This document shows positions 9,242 through 49,642 of a stretch of DNA of 56,875 nucleotides, piece by piece. Numbering within the stretch: the first letter of the stretch is position 1; the number at the start of each line of letters is the position of its first letter. Both the position numbers and the translations under genes were made by a program. The notes beneath the pieces are model-generated. The model searched no databases, was not told the origin of the DNA, and saw only the letters and a list, made by a program, of their open reading frames with translations. Source of the DNA: Segetibacter sp. (GTDB taxonomy: Bacteria; Bacteroidota; Bacteroidia; Chitinophagales; Chitinophagaceae); the NCBI GenBank assembly GCA_028288485.1, contig JAQBNO010000066.1, positions 1-56,875 on the forward strand, read 5' to 3'.

Positions 9242-10720
9242 TTACAGTTGCTTCCTTAACCGGGCAACAGGAAGATTTAATTGTTCACGATATTTTGCTA
9301 CAGTACGACGGGCAATATTATATCCTTTTTCCTGCAGCATATCCGTTAGCTGCTCATCGCTGAGCGGTTTGCGTTTATCTTCCGCCTCAATAAGATTGCT
9401 TAATATTTTTTTCACCTCCCGTGTGCTCACCTCTTCTCCACTGTCGGTACTAAGCGATTCGCTAAAGAAGAATTTAAGGCGGTAAGTTCCGAACTCCGTC
9501 TGCACAAATTTACTGTTTGCCACACGGCTTACGGTACTTATGTCGAGACCGGTCATCTCGGCAATGTCTTTTAAGATCATTGGCTTCAAGGTAGTTTCGT
9601 CGCCGGTAAGGAAGAACTCTTTCTGGTAATTCATGATGCTCGACATGGTACCTATCAACGTTTGCTGACGTTGCTTGATCATATCGATAAACCACTTCGC
9701 AGAGTCTATTTTTTGCTTTATAAAAAGAACAGCCTCTTTTTGGCGTTTGTCTTTCTTCGTGCCTTTTTCATAGTCTTTTATCATATCCCTGTACCCTTCA
9801 CTGATACGAAGATCAGGCGCATTTTTGCTGTTCAGGGTTAGTTCAAGAACACCATTATTATTGAAAATGAAAAAGTCGGGGACAACATAACTTTCGGCTT
9901 TATTAACCTCGCCAATATTTCCACCCGGCTTAGGGTTAAGCCTGATGATCTGGTTGATAACATCTTTCAGTTGCTGGTCGCCTAAACCCAGGCCGCGCTG
10001 AATTTTTTCGTAGTGCTTCTTGGTAAACTCATCGAAGTACTTTTCTAAAACCTGCATTGCTATTTCAACTTCTTTTCCCTCGTTCAGTTTACGCTTAAGC
10101 TGTAGAATTAAACACTCTTTTAAATCGCGTGCGCAAATGCCGGGAGGATCAAAGAGTTGAATTTGTTTTATAAGTCTTTCAATTTCTGCTTCGGAAGAAA
10201 GAATGTTCTGGCGGAAAGCCAGGTCGTCAGAAATAGAGGATATTTCTCTTCGCAGGTAGCCATCGTCGTCAATACTTCCAACTATTTGTTCTGCTATTTT
10301 CTGGGTTCTTTCGTCCAGTTCCATCATCCCCAACTGGTTCAGCAGCATTTCATGAAACGACGTTTCGACTCTTATCGGAATAACTTTACCCTCGTCCATT
10401 TCAGGGTAATTTTCATCGCGCAGCTTGTAATCACCTACTTCGTCGTCTCCTTCATGAACATATTCGCTCAAGTCTATATTTTCATAATCATCGGTGCTGC
10501 TTTCAGATTCGAAATCGTCATCGGAATCGCTTTTAAAATCATCATCTTCGAAATCGTCATGGCCGTCTTCACCAACTTCGAGGGCCGGGTTTTCTTCCAA
10601 TTCCTCTTTTATGCGCTCTTCAAGATTTGCAGTAGGAACCTGCAGCAACTTCATCAACTGAATTTGCTGAGGTGATAATTTTTGTAATAGCTTTTGTTGT
10701 AATGATTGACTTAATGACAT
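9242..10720 (-). CDS. rpoN: RNA polymerase sigma-54 factor
   Basis: Alternative sigma factor that needs an AAA+ enhancer-binding activator to open promoters of the -24/-12 type. Order of domains: Gln/Leu-rich activator-interacting region (LSQSLQQKLLQKLSPQQIQ..., residues 1-48), very acidic linker (about 50-110), core-binding domain (LEERIKEELEENPAL lies at the start; FDPPGICARDLKECL and LNPKPG in the middle), helix-turn-helix DNA-binding region with DIAEMTGLDISTVSRVANSK, and the RpoN box ARRTVAKYR at 470-478. Length (492 aa) is normal for Bacteroidota. First gene of a two-gene operon with the PAP2-like protein. Confidence 0.97.
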   Translation of the reverse strand: MSLSQSLQQKLLQKLSPQQIQLMKLLQVPTANLEERIKEELEENPALEVGEDGHDDFEDDDFKSDSDDDFESESSTDDYENIDLSEYVHEGDDEVGDYKLRDENYPEMDEGKVIPIRVETSFHEMLLNQLGMMELDERTQKIAEQIVGSIDDDGYLRREISSISDDLAFRQNILSSEAEIERLIKQIQLFDPPGICARDLKECLILQLKRKLNEGKEVEIAMQVLEKYFDEFTKKHYEKIQRGLGLGDQQLKDVINQIIRLNPKPGGNIGEVNKAESYVVPDFFIFNNNGVLELTLNSKNAPDLRISEGYRDMIKDYEKGTKKDKRQKEAVLFIKQKIDSAKWFIDMIKQRQQTLIGTMSSIMNYQKEFFLTGDETTLKPMILKDIAEMTGLDISTVSRVANSKFVQTEFGTYRLKFFFSESLSTDSGEEVSTREVKKILSNLIEAEDKRKPLSDEQLTDMLQEKGYNIARRTVAKYREQLNLPVARLRKQL

Positions 10721-32328: not shown

Positions 32329-34449
32329 TTAATAAAAATCGAAACGGTTATCTTTTATTTCAGCAGCTTTCTTTAAAGCTTCAATGCTACGGTAACCACC
32401 CATTTGCTTTTGTTGCATTTCGAGTTGTTTGCGCAGGTCCTCAACATTCATATTTGTGTTTGGAAGGGCAGAAATACTTCCACCTTTAACAACGAATACA
32501 CCTGTGTTGCCCGCAATTGGCTCACTTACTTTTGCCTGCAGGCTCTTATTGAACGCGGCCCCGGCAATTTTAGGTTCGTTACCTATATTTTGAATAAAAG
32601 GTTGTCCGAAACTAACGCTATCAGCATTCAAAACGCTCACCCCGGCAGATTGTGCAACCTGCTCAATTGTATTACCACCTTTGAATTTGGAAGAAATAAT
32701 TTGTTGTGCTTTCTTTTCGTTCATGATTAAAGGCTCTGCGGTTTGACGTGCTTTTGCTACACTCATCAACCCTTTGTCGGAAACACTTGTAATTACCGCT
32801 ACCACGTATTTATCGCCAATCTCGTAAGGCTCACTTACATCACCACCTTTATTTTCATACACCCAACGAACAAACTGACGGCTTTCGCCCAGCGCCGGAA
32901 CCTGGTAGTCGTTTTGTTTGATTTCAGCAACGGGTAAAATCTGGAGGTTTTGTTTTGCAGCATTCTCTTCGAACTGCTTATTATTTCTGCTGTTAGCAGC
33001 AAACTGTGAAGCTAAGTTGTTTGCATTGTTGATCGTTTCCTGGCTTGCTTCTATAGCTTTTGCCAGGTAAGCAATCTTATAGGCAGTTTCGATTTTCTTT
33101 TGTTCAACAACCTCTATATAGTGATAACCGCTGTAGGACTGGTTTTCTACTTTTACAACTTGTTTGTCACCTGTCTGTCCATAAAACGCTACTTCCGCGA
33201 ACTCCTTACTTAAATTAGCAAATTGCTGCGAAGTAAAATCATATTCACCCTTCGTGTTTTTGCTTCCCTGGTCATCGCTGTATTGTAAAACCAGTGCATT
33301 AAAATCAGCCCCTGATTTTGCGGCTGCAGCAATACTATCAATTCTTGCTTTTGCAATGCTATCCGGTAAAGTTGGCTGTCCTTTCTCACCTGTCTTAATT
33401 AATATGTGCCTGACCTTTACACTATCCGGCATACTACGGCGATCAATCATTTTAGCAAGTGCATAATTAGAGCCATCATTATAAGGACCGAATACCTGGC
33501 CATTAGCTAACATTTTAATAGTATCAGCATTTGGCACCTGTAACTTAGATCCCAGCGTGTAGCCGTTAAAATAAGGGATTTCTGATCCTACACGTGTAAG
33601 GAAATTTTCAGGATCGGGTGCTGCGGCAAATTCAGCAGAAAGGTTTTGAACCTGGGTTAAAACTTTAGCGCTGTCTGCAGTTGAAGGAGAGGCGCTGAAA
33701 GCAACATAAGAAACTGAACGTGTAGCTTCATCCTGTTTGAATGATTCCCGGTGTTTATTAATGTACGCTTTTACATCGTCGTCGGTCACCTTAACTGTGC
33801 TATCACTGATGGTACTGTAGGGAACGGTTACATAAGAAAAACGGGCAACAGCGTTTTGATCTGCCAATGTTTTTTCTGCAAACCATTTTGGAACATACGA
33901 ACTGTTTCCTAAAAGCGCCATATACTTCATACGAAGAGTCTGGCTGATGGTAGGCTGAATGTAGGCCTCGTTGAACATCTCCATGTTCGGGTTATCCTTT
34001 TGCTTTTTTAGCTGAGCAAAATATTGCTTAGCCTGGTTTACATCGTACTGCCCGGTTTGAGGATCAGTAAATTGCTGGCTTAGCCACTGCGGAGGATTTG
34101 CACCAAAAAGCACATCATTCAATTCCTTTGCACTGAACTGTAGTCCTACTTTTTCGTATTCCTGGTTCATTACAATTTCATCTACTGTTTGTTCCCAAAC
34201 ATTGCTGATCAATTGTTCGCGCTGTGGTGCCTGGGCGCCGTACATGGCTTGTTGAAGGTTGATCCTTTTTTCAAAATCATTTCTTTCAATCTTCTGACCG
34301 TTTACTTTACCAACATTGGTATTACTTGTTCCAGATCCTTGTCCAGGTCCTACAAAAGCATCCATTAAAATAAAACCAACCAAACTAAGGGCAATTACCG
34401 CAATAACCACCGCGGCATATTTATCCCTGATTTTTTGAATAACCGACAT
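32329..34449 (-). CDS. ppiD: Membrane-anchored peptidyl-prolyl isomerase / chaperone (PpiD/SurA-like)
   Basis: A 706-residue periplasmic folding factor. One N-terminal membrane anchor (AAVVIAVIALSLVGFILMDA) is followed by a SurA N-terminal-like domain (VGKVNGQKIERNDFEKRI), a long helical region, and a parvulin domain (VKVRHILIKTG ... ADFNALVLQYSDDQGSKNTK ... SYSGYHYIEV, about 340-450). A second, degenerate rotamase-like region and a Gln-rich C-terminus follow. Length and layout match Bacteroidota PpiD. It is transcribed from a perfect consensus promoter and is divergent from nadA, with the candidate origin of replication between them. Confidence 0.94.
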   Translation of the reverse strand: MSVIQKIRDKYAAVVIAVIALSLVGFILMDAFVGPGQGSGTSNTNVGKVNGQKIERNDFEKRINLQQAMYGAQAPQREQLISNVWEQTVDEIVMNQEYEKVGLQFSAKELNDVLFGANPPQWLSQQFTDPQTGQYDVNQAKQYFAQLKKQKDNPNMEMFNEAYIQPTISQTLRMKYMALLGNSSYVPKWFAEKTLADQNAVARFSYVTVPYSTISDSTVKVTDDDVKAYINKHRESFKQDEATRSVSYVAFSASPSTADSAKVLTQVQNLSAEFAAAPDPENFLTRVGSEIPYFNGYTLGSKLQVPNADTIKMLANGQVFGPYNDGSNYALAKMIDRRSMPDSVKVRHILIKTGEKGQPTLPDSIAKARIDSIAAAAKSGADFNALVLQYSDDQGSKNTKGEYDFTSQQFANLSKEFAEVAFYGQTGDKQVVKVENQSYSGYHYIEVVEQKKIETAYKIAYLAKAIEASQETINNANNLASQFAANSRNNKQFEENAAKQNLQILPVAEIKQNDYQVPALGESRQFVRWVYENKGGDVSEPYEIGDKYVVAVITSVSDKGLMSVAKARQTAEPLIMNEKKAQQIISSKFKGGNTIEQVAQSAGVSVLNADSVSFGQPFIQNIGNEPKIAGAAFNKSLQAKVSEPIAGNTGVFVVKGGSISALPNTNMNVEDLRKQLEMQQKQMGGYRSIEALKKAAEIKDNRFDFY

Positions 34450-34477
34450 AATTATATTATAACTTTTTTAGAGGACG

Positions 34478-34508
34478 CAAAAATAGGGGAATATATTGTT
34501 CGAACAAA
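34478..34508 (-). promoter_or_regulatory. Consensus promoter of ppiD
   Basis: On the minus strand TTTG (34508-34505), a 19-base spacer and TATTTTTG (34485-34478): a full match to the Bacteroidota TTTG-N19-TAnnTTTG consensus, about 28 bases upstream of the ppiD ATG. A DnaA-box-like site (34509-34517) abuts the -33 element, so DnaA could influence this promoter. Confidence 0.8.
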
Positions 34509-34771
34509 TGTGGAAAACGTTGTAAAACCCCTATTAATGCTTACTTACAGGGTTCCTGGCATAATTCTTTTATGTGAATAACTTTTTTCCTATAGATAAA
34601 ACACCGTTTTTCAAAATATTTTGTTTCCACATCACGTTGTTAAAAACGCAAAATTCTGTGGACAACGGCAATGTTTTTTATAAATCTTCGTTGAAAGATA
34701 TAGAGCAACTCTACTTCTTTTATTCGATTATTTACCAACGACTCCGGAAAAAAGAACTTATCCTATTTCTT

Positions 34772-34795
34772 TTAACACGAAAATTTTCGTGTTAA
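34772..34795. repeat. Perfect 24-bp palindrome
   Basis: TTAACACGAAAA followed directly by its reverse complement TTTTCGTGTTAA. It lies in the candidate origin and is followed by TTGGTCTTTTTT. It could be a dimeric protein-binding site, or an intrinsic terminator (stem with AATT loop and T run) of an unseen small plus-strand transcript. Confidence 0.8.
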
Positions 34796-34833
34796 TTGGT
34801 CTTTTTTATACACCTGTCACATAATCCCCAGTA

Positions 34834-34864
34834 TGTGGGAAAACCCTTCAAATCCCTAATTTTG
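34834..34864 (+). promoter_or_regulatory. Possible nadA promoter
   Basis: TAATTTTG at 34857-34864 is a perfect -7 box; 19 bases upstream is TGTG (3 of 4 matches to TTTG). The start codon is about 157 bases further on, so the leader would run through part of the candidate origin. Confidence 0.45.
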
Positions 34865-35021
34865 TTGTAATAATCGCTGTGAAGTGTTTGTGGATAAGCG
34901 TGTATAAACAGTAAATTTTACATTTGCAAATAATAGGAATAAAAGTTATCCCGCTATTAACACCCGTAGTAGTAATAGCTTTATTTATAAATAATCTATT
35001 AAAGAATCTATTACAGTAGTT

Positions 35022-36029
35022 ATGAACATAGCTGAAGCGAAATATAAGGTTGAAGAAAGAGGTTTCCTCGACATCGACATCGATGTGCATCTCGACCTTT
35101 TTTCTGAAATCGAAAGATTGAAAAAAGAAAAAAATGCAATTGTGCTGGCGCACTATTACCAGGAGCCCGATATTCAGGATGTCGCTGACTTTCTTGGTGA
35201 TAGTCTTGGATTAGCGCAAAAGGCACAGTCTACCGATGCCGACATGATTGTTTTTGCAGGTGTACACTTTATGGCGGAGACAGCAAAAATTTTAAACCCT
35301 ACAAAAAAGGTGGTCTTGCCTGATCTTAAGGCGGGATGTTCCCTGGCCGATAGTGCTCCTGCGGACCAGTTTCGGGCTTTCAAAGAGAGGCATCCTGAGC
35401 ACCTCGTTATTAGCTATATAAACTGCACTGCCGACATTAAAGCGCTGAGTGATATCATTTGTACAAGCAGTAATGCTGAGGCGATTTTAAATAGCCTGCC
35501 GGCCGATCAAAAGATCATTTTCGCACCCGACAGGAACCTTGGTGGTTTTTTAAACAAGAAGACTGGCCGTAACATGTTGCTTTGGAACGGAGCTTGTATG
35601 GTACATGAAATTTTCAGCATGGAGAAAATAACCAAACTGAAAATTCGTCATCCAAATGCTAAAGTGATAGCGCATCCTGAGTGTGAAGAAGCTGTTCTTC
35701 GCCTGGCTGAATTTATTGGAAGTACTACCCAATTGCTCAAATATGCAGTTACCGATAGCTGTAACGAATTTATTGTAGCTACTGAAACTGGTATTTTGCA
35801 CCAGATGCAAAAAGATGCTCCATATAAGACTTTCATTCCGGCTCCGCCTAATAACAGTTGCGCATGTAACGATTGCCCGTATATGAAACTAAATTCCCTT
35901 GAAAAATTGTATTTGTGTATGGAGTACGAAACTCCGGAAATCTTGATGAACGAAGATTTACGTCTTGCAGCTAAAAAGCCAATAGATCGTATGCTTCAAA
36001 TAAGCAGGGATGCGGGATTAATTGGATAA
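35022..36029 (+). CDS. nadA: Quinolinate synthase
   Basis: Condenses iminoaspartate (from NadB) with dihydroxyacetone phosphate to quinolinate using a 4Fe-4S cluster; cytoplasmic. Motifs: [19 protein letters not shown] at about residue 39, [37 protein letters not shown] (Cys106), [20 protein letters not shown] followed by GACMVHE (Cys192), HPECEEAV and the C-terminal CACNDCPYM (Cys280, 282, 285). The cluster ligands are therefore all present. Length 335 aa is normal. It has a strong terminator 20 bases after the stop codon and is transcribed away from the candidate origin. Confidence 0.97.
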
Positions 36030-48947: not shown

Positions 48948-49625
48948 ATGTTTCACGTGAAACGTTTTATTATTCTCGCTCTTTTTATTCCTTTTGGTGT
49001 TTGTGCTCAGCATATGGGGACTACTGTTATAGAGGTTAAAGAATTTCCGCCGCTTCCATCCAAAAATATTTCAATTGATAAGTTCCTGGACCAGTTTCCT
49101 GAAACGGGTTCCTTAAGCAAATTGCAAAGAGAATGGTTTTATTGGACAAATTATAGCAGGGAAAATCCAAGGCGATTTTGGGATAGCGTAGTTTTCCCGC
49201 TTCTTAAAAGCTTCCCCGCCTTGGACAACTCTTACTCGCAAAGTCTAAAAAAAGATTTATACAAGGTTCAATCTTTGCCTTTTGTAAAACCTAATGCGAG
49301 TCTGGCTCTTGTGTCAGGAAAATTGGCAAAGGAATTGGCATCGAAAAAAGCGGCTCCGTCTCACACTTCTCCCTCGGGTTCTACATTTGAAGACAGAATG
49401 AAGGAAGCAGCTATTAAGTTCTGCGCAGGCGAGAATATTAGCTTTGGTCCCGATAATCCTGTTTTTATGTTAACACTACTCTATATAGACCAGGGAGTGC
49501 CTGATCTTGGGCATAGGAAAACGCTCCTTGATCCTACTTATGTTGAAATGGGTATTGGTGCTGCCAGTTATCCCGATAAGAAGTGGATGGTGATCCAGGA
49601 GTTCGCCTGCAACCAGAAGAAGTAA
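48948..49625 (+). CDS. Secreted CAP-domain (SCP/PR1-like) protein
   Basis: A 225-residue exported protein. Signal peptide MFHVKRFIILALFIPFGVCA. The mature part has the CAP fold: EWFYWTNYSRENPRRFWDSV (helix 1, N-x-x-R), KLAKELASKKAAPSHTSP, CAGENISFG (GENI motif), IDQGVPDLGHRKTLLDPTYV (GHRxxLLxP) and EMGIGAASYPDKKWMVIQEF. In bacteria, CAP proteins are secreted or cell-surface proteins of varied or unknown role. A parS site overlaps its first six codons (hence MFHVKR) and another parS lies directly after the stop codon. Confidence 0.92.
   Translation: MFHVKRFIILALFIPFGVCAQHMGTTVIEVKEFPPLPSKNISIDKFLDQFPETGSLSKLQREWFYWTNYSRENPRRFWDSVVFPLLKSFPALDNSYSQSLKKDLYKVQSLPFVKPNASLALVSGKLAKELASKKAAPSHTSPSGSTFEDRMKEAAIKFCAGENISFGPDNPVFMLTLLYIDQGVPDLGHRKTLLDPTYVEMGIGAASYPDKKWMVIQEFACNQKK
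48949..48964. other. parS site (ParB binding)
   Basis: TGTTTCACGTGAAACG differs from the widely conserved parS sequence TGTTTCACGTGAAACA only in the last base. It is embedded in the start of the CAP gene. ParB nucleates here in chromosome partition; parS sites usually lie within tens of kilobases of oriC. Confidence 0.85.
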
Positions 49626-49626
49626 T

Positions 49627-49642
49627 TGTTTCACGTGGAACA
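49627..49642. other. parS site (ParB binding), second copy
   Basis: TGTTTCACGTGGAACA: 15 of 16 matches to the parS consensus. It is one base beyond the CAP gene stop codon and 62 bases upstream of the mnmG start. Two parS sites 662 bases apart beside mnmG (gidA) strongly suggest an origin-proximal region. Confidence 0.88.

Follow-up and report, generated by a model that had tools for sequence, protein, structure and literature searches.

On the strength of its sequence features, the 572-bp intergenic region between a ppiD-like gene and nadA is in all likelihood the chromosomal replication origin (oriC) of this Segetibacter, a soil bacterium, and is situated at a locus common to most of the sampled Chitinophagaceae. 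The gap occupies positions 34450-35021 of the window, i.e. the whole 56,875-nucleotide stretch of DNA that was analysed, and lies between divergent genes: a ppiD-like SurA/PPIC peptidylprolyl isomerase gene to the left (32329-34449, minus strand) and nadA, encoding quinolinate synthase, to the right (35022-36029, plus strand). The initial annotation had proposed an unannotated origin at this site, a proposal that is supported by GC skew, DnaA box density, linkage to parS, conservation within the family, distance from dnaA and retention of the locus in genomes that lack nadA. The window represents contig C127 of draft genome G000 (6.375 Mb in 220 contigs). Since the closest relatives of the ppiD-like gene among named genomes belong to Segetibacter koreensis (82%) and two Segetibacter MAGs (82 and 70%), the host was assigned to Segetibacter, family Chitinophagaceae. 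The anatomy of the gap, the clustering of its boxes beyond chance, its conservation, its position relative to GC skew and its linkage to parS are computed results.

Sequence anatomy of the ppiD-nadA gap

The four DnaA boxes in the gap with no more than one mismatch are all located on the minus strand. Two are exact matches to TTATNCACA, namely TTATTCACA at 34573-34581 and TTATCCACA at 34889-34897, and two differ from TTATCCACA at a single position, namely TTTTCCACA at 34509-34517 and TTGTCCACA at 34657-34665. These pairs are as the initial annotation had described them, although six two-mismatch boxes were counted where it had listed three weaker ones. One box with two mismatches, TTATACACG at 34899-34907 (minus strand), stands in tandem with the exact box at 34889 in a 10-bp register, and similar tandem pairs are present in several relatives. 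Amongst ten Segetibacter gaps, the position of the 34509 box is occupied by TTTTCCACA or TTATCCACA in every case, and seven retain a box of no more than one mismatch at the position of the 34657 box.

The clustering of these boxes exceeds chance, as would be expected of an oriC, both against shuffled sequence and against 30 of the 32 exact TTATCCACA sites in the genome. None of 3000 dinucleotide shuffles of the gap reached four boxes with at most one mismatch (shuffle mean 0.19), and only 2 of 3000 reached two TTATNCACA boxes. Across the window, TTATNCACA occurs four times against 2.57 expected, which is no enrichment; the standout feature is the clustering of boxes in the gap as opposed to their number in the window. 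All 21 of the 600-bp windows on the contig that contain four boxes span the gap, and no more than two boxes were found per 600 bp elsewhere, a comparison that covers the surroundings of exact boxes at 30 of the 32 sites. The count of 32 exact TTATCCACA sites compares with 66 for the same letters reversed, which would fit an avoidance of stray strong boxes in this genome. Elsewhere, on contig C45 (L007:1500-1600), two exact boxes face each other over a distance of 89 bp (no other exact pair among the 32 sites is so close) in a gap between genes that we take, from reading their translations, to be mraZ-like (cell-division cluster) and queA-like; DnaA could perhaps control the division cluster there. 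On box number, with just two, this locus was set aside as a rival origin.

The most conserved part of the gap, a pair of tandem plus-strand boxes beside a trio-like run, had been missed in the initial annotation. Core box 1 (TTATCCCGC, 34946-34954; family consensus TTWTCC[CA][CG]A) and core box 2 (CTATTAACA, 34954-34962; family consensus NWATYCACA) overlap by one base, and are followed on the same strand by a GC-rich tetranucleotide, CCCG (34963-34966), and then by the DnaA-trio-like repeat TAGTAGTAATAG (34967-34978), referred to here as the TAR repeat, which occurs once in the window. The trio-like run and the AT-rich segment noted previously are therefore both present. The AT-rich, presumed unwinding element (34979-35021) reaches the start of nadA and falls within the least stable 60 bp of the 56.9-kb window (34970-35029, extending eight bases into nadA), as calculated with nearest-neighbour energies. 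AT content across 56 aligned family sequences is 89% over the 36 bp that follow the repeat, versus 68% further upstream. At the sequence level, then, the boxes are adjoined by an AT-rich element of the type associated with an oriC.

From this layout we infer DnaA binding, melting, initiation and segregation at the gap. DnaA would bind the minus-strand boxes across the gap together with the tandem plus-strand boxes at 34946-34962, and the GC-rich tetranucleotide would position the protein such that a DnaA oligomer could engage one strand of the TAR repeat. Melting of the adjacent AT-rich DNA would then permit helicase loading and the departure of two forks, and parS sites 14 kb away would help to segregate the new origin copies via ParB.

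GC skew, parS sites and the location of dnaA

The cumulative GC skew of the window has its minimum at 34,856, within the gap (-325), which is where the minimum would be expected for an oriC; within the draft genome itself this applies at the scale of the contig. A similar result was obtained with a 22-kb piece from S. koreensis (L066), where the minimum at 9,572 is also inside the gap, but the minima of two further pieces of 15 and 22 kb (L063 and L065) are not at the gap. Of eight relatives, five support an origin at this locus, two of them chromosome-wide and three locally, two are unclear (G013 and G071) and one is contrary (G117). In the complete chromosome G031, all 20 skew samples are consistent with an origin at nadA, being positive in 9/9 cases between 668 kb and 2.02 Mb and negative in 11/11 elsewhere, and a finer series (561-748 kb, 5-kb bins) placed the minimum at 636 kb, 4 kb from the core. 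In the complete relative G027, ten of ten samples are negative to the left of nadA and eight of nine between 2.45 and 4.43 Mb are positive; the final one, taken at 4.66 Mb, is negative and perhaps past the terminus. Samples taken 50 and 150 kb to either side of the locus revealed that skew flips in G087, where it is near zero at -50 kb, and G172, and weakly so in G090. The sampled minimum of G013 lies 0.9 Mb from the locus, skew turning only slightly around nadA itself. In G117 local skew is reversed, and skew along the chromosome is noisy. The core is present in G117 (C1, ~6.04 Mb), with strong skew of +0.02 to +0.05 on its left and -0.12 to -0.14 on its right, perhaps as a result of a recent rearrangement.

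The skew profile of the window contains a second low near 42.5 kb (-315) that nearly equals the minimum at the gap, and a finer series in G027 (2.205-2.470 Mb) has its minimum at 2.385 Mb, 9 kb from the core. Replication could feasibly start nearby, then, either at the 42.5-kb low or in the region of parS and mnmG at 48-52 kb, with the gap acting as an accessory DnaA site; certain other bacteria have mnmG (gidA) next to their origin. However, four boxes within 600 bp are found nowhere else on the contig, and it is in the ppiD-nadA gap that the conserved core and the AT-rich element sit, and a displaced start of this kind is considered extremely unlikely.

The two parS sites reported in the initial annotation at a distance of some 14 kb were confirmed as TGTTTCACGTGAAACG (48949-48964) and TGTTTCACGTGGAACA (49627-49642, just before mnmG), each with one mismatch, and these are the sole parS-like sites in the G000 genome at that threshold. 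The first falls right where a YkwD-like ORF begins, and the second is in the gap preceding mnmG. Thirty family genomes, selected by us mostly for long contigs and a hit to the core, were searched in their entirety, revealing a parS-like site within one mismatch in 12 and none in 18. The proximity of parS expected at an oriC was observed in 11 of the 12 site-bearing genomes, in which all such sites are within 20 kb of the core. Distances are 3.8 kb in G147, 3.9 kb in G027, 4.0 kb in G172, 4.9 kb in G186, 4.2-5.4 kb in G204, 8.8 kb in G031, 9.9-11.6 kb in G145, 14.0-14.7 kb in the window genome, 17.8 kb in G119 and 19.1 kb in G083, plus 12-13 kb in G006, where the measurement was made to nadA. 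Values for G172, G204 and G145 refer to a core-pattern hit identified by its sequence, irrespective of its neighbours, which in G145 was the most core-like of three. The exception is G154, in which a parS-like site with a non-palindromic centre is 761 kb from the core.

The orientation of neighbouring genes had also been cited as evidence of forks leaving this point. The argument holds to the left of the gap, where genes are mostly on the minus strand, but not to the right, where the gene-like ORFs that we selected from the ORF list, from nadA to the end of the window, are split between eight on the plus and eight on the minus strand.

Bacteroidota origins, according to the initial annotation, often lie away from dnaA. 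An origin at dnaA was rejected in the present case, the gene being on another contig in G000. A search of five single-contig relatives (G013, G027, G031, G087 and G117) likewise placed it a long way from the core, and ten dnaA loci of 2.6-3.2 kb hold between zero and two boxes each.

Conservation of the core across Chitinophagaceae

Boxes are concentrated upstream of nadA across the family. In 30 family nadA loci (10 from Segetibacter and 20 from other genera), the 700 bp upstream of nadA contain 119 boxes, or 5.7 per kb, versus 0.39 per kb beyond, up to 0.8 kb. G027 is at the upper end among the relatives, with 12 boxes within 400 bp, and the loci of G010, G034 and G007 have a single box within 900 bp. 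Alignment of the ten Segetibacter gaps revealed that the strongest non-coding block is AAGTTATCCCGCTATTAACA-NNNN-TAGTAGTAATAG followed by AT-rich DNA. A fuzzy search with the box part only, which did not use the repeat, matched most other family loci, in the form TTATCC..ATTCACA-SCCG-TAATAGTAATAGG. No match was obtained by this means in G018, G028, G015, G021, G030, G011 or G010, but the exact core pattern, ATNMACANNNNTARTRRTARTA, does match in G018, G028, G021, G030 and G011.

This pattern was found in 141 of 195 family genomes, with a single copy in 122 of the 141, compared with 14 of 195 for a reversed-pattern control (single-hit and control counts were tallied by us from the table of pattern matches), and was absent in its exact form from the remaining 54. 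Because the pattern forces the repeat, invariance at the repeat positions is in part built in, a constraint that does not apply to box 1 or the AT-rich flank. Amongst genomes in the family draw that have nadA, 23 of 28 carry the pattern (the others being G010, G015, G019, G020 and G029), in every case with a copy no more than 150 bp away from the match to nadA. Of the 30 family core-pattern loci examined, 26 adjoin nadA and/or ppiD; those situated elsewhere are in G076, G110 and G169, each of which has another hit, and in G182, where the hit is the only one. The motif is present as an inverted pair at G206:C227:1202-1269, perhaps forming a two-sided unwinding core, and in G014, of the same genus, the core at C204:1815 is oriented opposite to nadA, for which a two-sided core is again a possibility.

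Outside the family the motif does not serve as a phylum-wide origin signature, since its occurrence there is near the background of the backward-pattern controls. A draw from the phylum yielded the pattern in 29 of 296 genomes, including 10 of the 11 family members drawn, which corresponds to 19/285 outside the family, and a draw from the class yielded 17 of 198, three of them family members (of four drawn), or 14/194 outside; the backward controls gave 12/296 and 13/198, respectively. The mean number of boxes within 600 bp of the pattern is 0.57 in 30 non-family loci versus 3.7 in 41 family loci. In ten other genomes of the order, between zero and three boxes lie within 900 bp of nadA, and the last 400 bp contain nothing that resembles the core.

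Alternatively, DnaA could act in the gap as a regulator of promoters for nadA and/or ppiD, or be titrated there, with replication starting elsewhere. DnaA is a known transcription factor, the gap separates divergent genes, with its AT-rich part touching the start of nadA, and an intergenic pair of exact boxes also precedes the mraZ-like gene on C45, so near-promoter boxes exist in the genome. However, in G105, G089, G026, G146 and G186 the core is retained beside ppiD, yet there is no NadA match anywhere in these five genomes. Conversely, G027 has retained the core and nadA with no ppiD match in the 3-kb locus, the next ORF being one of 157 aa. Since the core outlives nadA in five genomes and ppiD in another, a gene-specific regulatory site, and with it a promoter-only role, is disfavoured. 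The flips in GC skew and the linkage to parS would, moreover, be unexpected of a promoter, and it seems very unlikely that promoter control or titration explains the boxes.

With the gap taken as the origin, the Chitinophagaceae, a family of environmental bacteria, gain an origin that can be found via a 22-base pattern beside nadA or ppiD, which should be of use in ordering draft genomes, in coverage-based estimates of growth rate and in constructing replicating vectors. The open-access titles and beginnings of abstracts searched describe no Chitinophagaceae origin or Bacteroidetes DnaA-trio; DoriC predictions for complete genomes of the family, and subscription papers, may exist. The new point is the departure of the repeat from the canonical DnaA-trio together with the altered trio-contacting residues of DnaA. 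With both the repeat and the residues expected to read it departing from the known code, the family offers a natural setting in which to test the recognition of single-stranded origin DNA by DnaA.

The trio-like repeat, DnaA and known origins

In the basal unwinding system (BUS) of Bacillus subtilis and other bacteria, boxes and a GC-rich spacer load DnaA onto 3'-GAT-5' trios, the strand concerned being the one that makes up a 5' tail past the boxes (PMC8287927, PMC10721633). A degenerate trio takes the form 3'-[G/A]A[T/A]-5' (PMC7561715), and the BUS rule specifies a DnaA box with at most two mismatches no more than 16 bp from at least three 3'-NAN-5' trinucleotides (PMC8287927). In the B. 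subtilis protein, Arg202 and Glu228 hold the G of the trio, Asn187 and Glu183 hold the A, Lys222 contacts a backbone phosphate, and Ile190 and Ile193 flank the third base (PMC10721633).

Alignment of the DnaA of the window genome to 8btg indicated that E183, N187, N196 and E223 are kept and that the protein carries the changes I190Q, I193S, R202I, K222A and E228A. I193S, R202I and K222A are present in all 13 family DnaAs, residue 228 being alanine in 12 and valine in one, and N187 is kept in 12; the BUS pocket of N187, I190, I193, R202 and E228 (B. subtilis numbering) is thus not preserved in the family. In 17 other Bacteroidota DnaAs, neither I193S nor K222A was found, R202 is kept in none (isoleucine in three) and E228 is kept in six. 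Hence none of the 30 Bacteroidota DnaAs sampled retains R202, and I193S and K222A mark the Chitinophagaceae among them.

Given a repeat unlike that of B. subtilis and a family DnaA with changes at the residues that contact the trio, strand capture may take a form specific to this lineage. Tentatively, Chitinophagaceae might open the chromosome with a retuned DnaA-trio, in which the TAR repeat would be read as 3'-[C/T]AT-5' or as consensus trios of inverted polarity. The two versions together are considered less likely than not. The pyrimidine-first one would suit a protein in which guanine-contacting Arg202 and Glu228, as well as the equivalents of Lys222 and Ile193, have been lost while the adenine-contacting Asn187 is kept. 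The core pattern is found in 38 of 44 family genomes whose DnaA is at least 75% identical to that of the window genome, and in 3 of 11 at 70% identity or less, a split that leaves out three genomes with no DnaA match and two with fragments only. The three with the core are G014, G026 and G035, and those without the exact core are G010, G020, G029, G063, G064, G074, G082 and G088. Family members with a divergent DnaA and no exact core may use a changed core, and relatedness alone may be the source of the split. Since G010 and G063 have I193S, R202I and K222A in the absence of the exact core pattern, the residue changes are older than, or untied to, the exact motif, and the odds of a retuned motif-DnaA pair are lowered accordingly.

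In its general organisation the gap resembles an oriC of the DnaA-box type, with an intergenic box cluster, an AT-rich element, a GC-skew minimum and parS nearby, but it lies between ppiD and nadA as opposed to beside dnaA, and its near-consensus boxes number four in this species versus up to twelve in a relative. Compared with the B. subtilis BUS (PMC8287927, PMC10721633), tandem boxes, a GC-rich tetranucleotide, a repeat of trinucleotides with a middle A and AT-rich DNA are shared in that order, and the spacing in the gap core is within the published limit. Repeat, order and spacing fit the BUS rule, but both core boxes of the window are poor, with three mismatches each to TTATCCACA, and fall outside it, whereas some relatives fall within it, for example G027 with ATATTCACA (two mismatches). 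Furthermore, the strand whose 3' side faces the boxes reads 3'-[C/T]AT-5' in place of the canonical 3'-GAT-5', the consensus 3'-[G/A]AT-5' being found on the other (box) strand with inverted polarity, and the family DnaA, unlike that of B. subtilis, has no equivalents of Arg202, Lys222 and Ile193 and has replaced Glu228. The order of boxes, GC-rich sequence, DnaA-trio and AT-rich region is also that of Helicobacter pylori oriC2, in which reversal of trio polarity was reported to inhibit unwinding (PMC8235120). The Chitinophagaceae core would differ from oriC2 in having the consensus trio inverted, if that strand is the one used.
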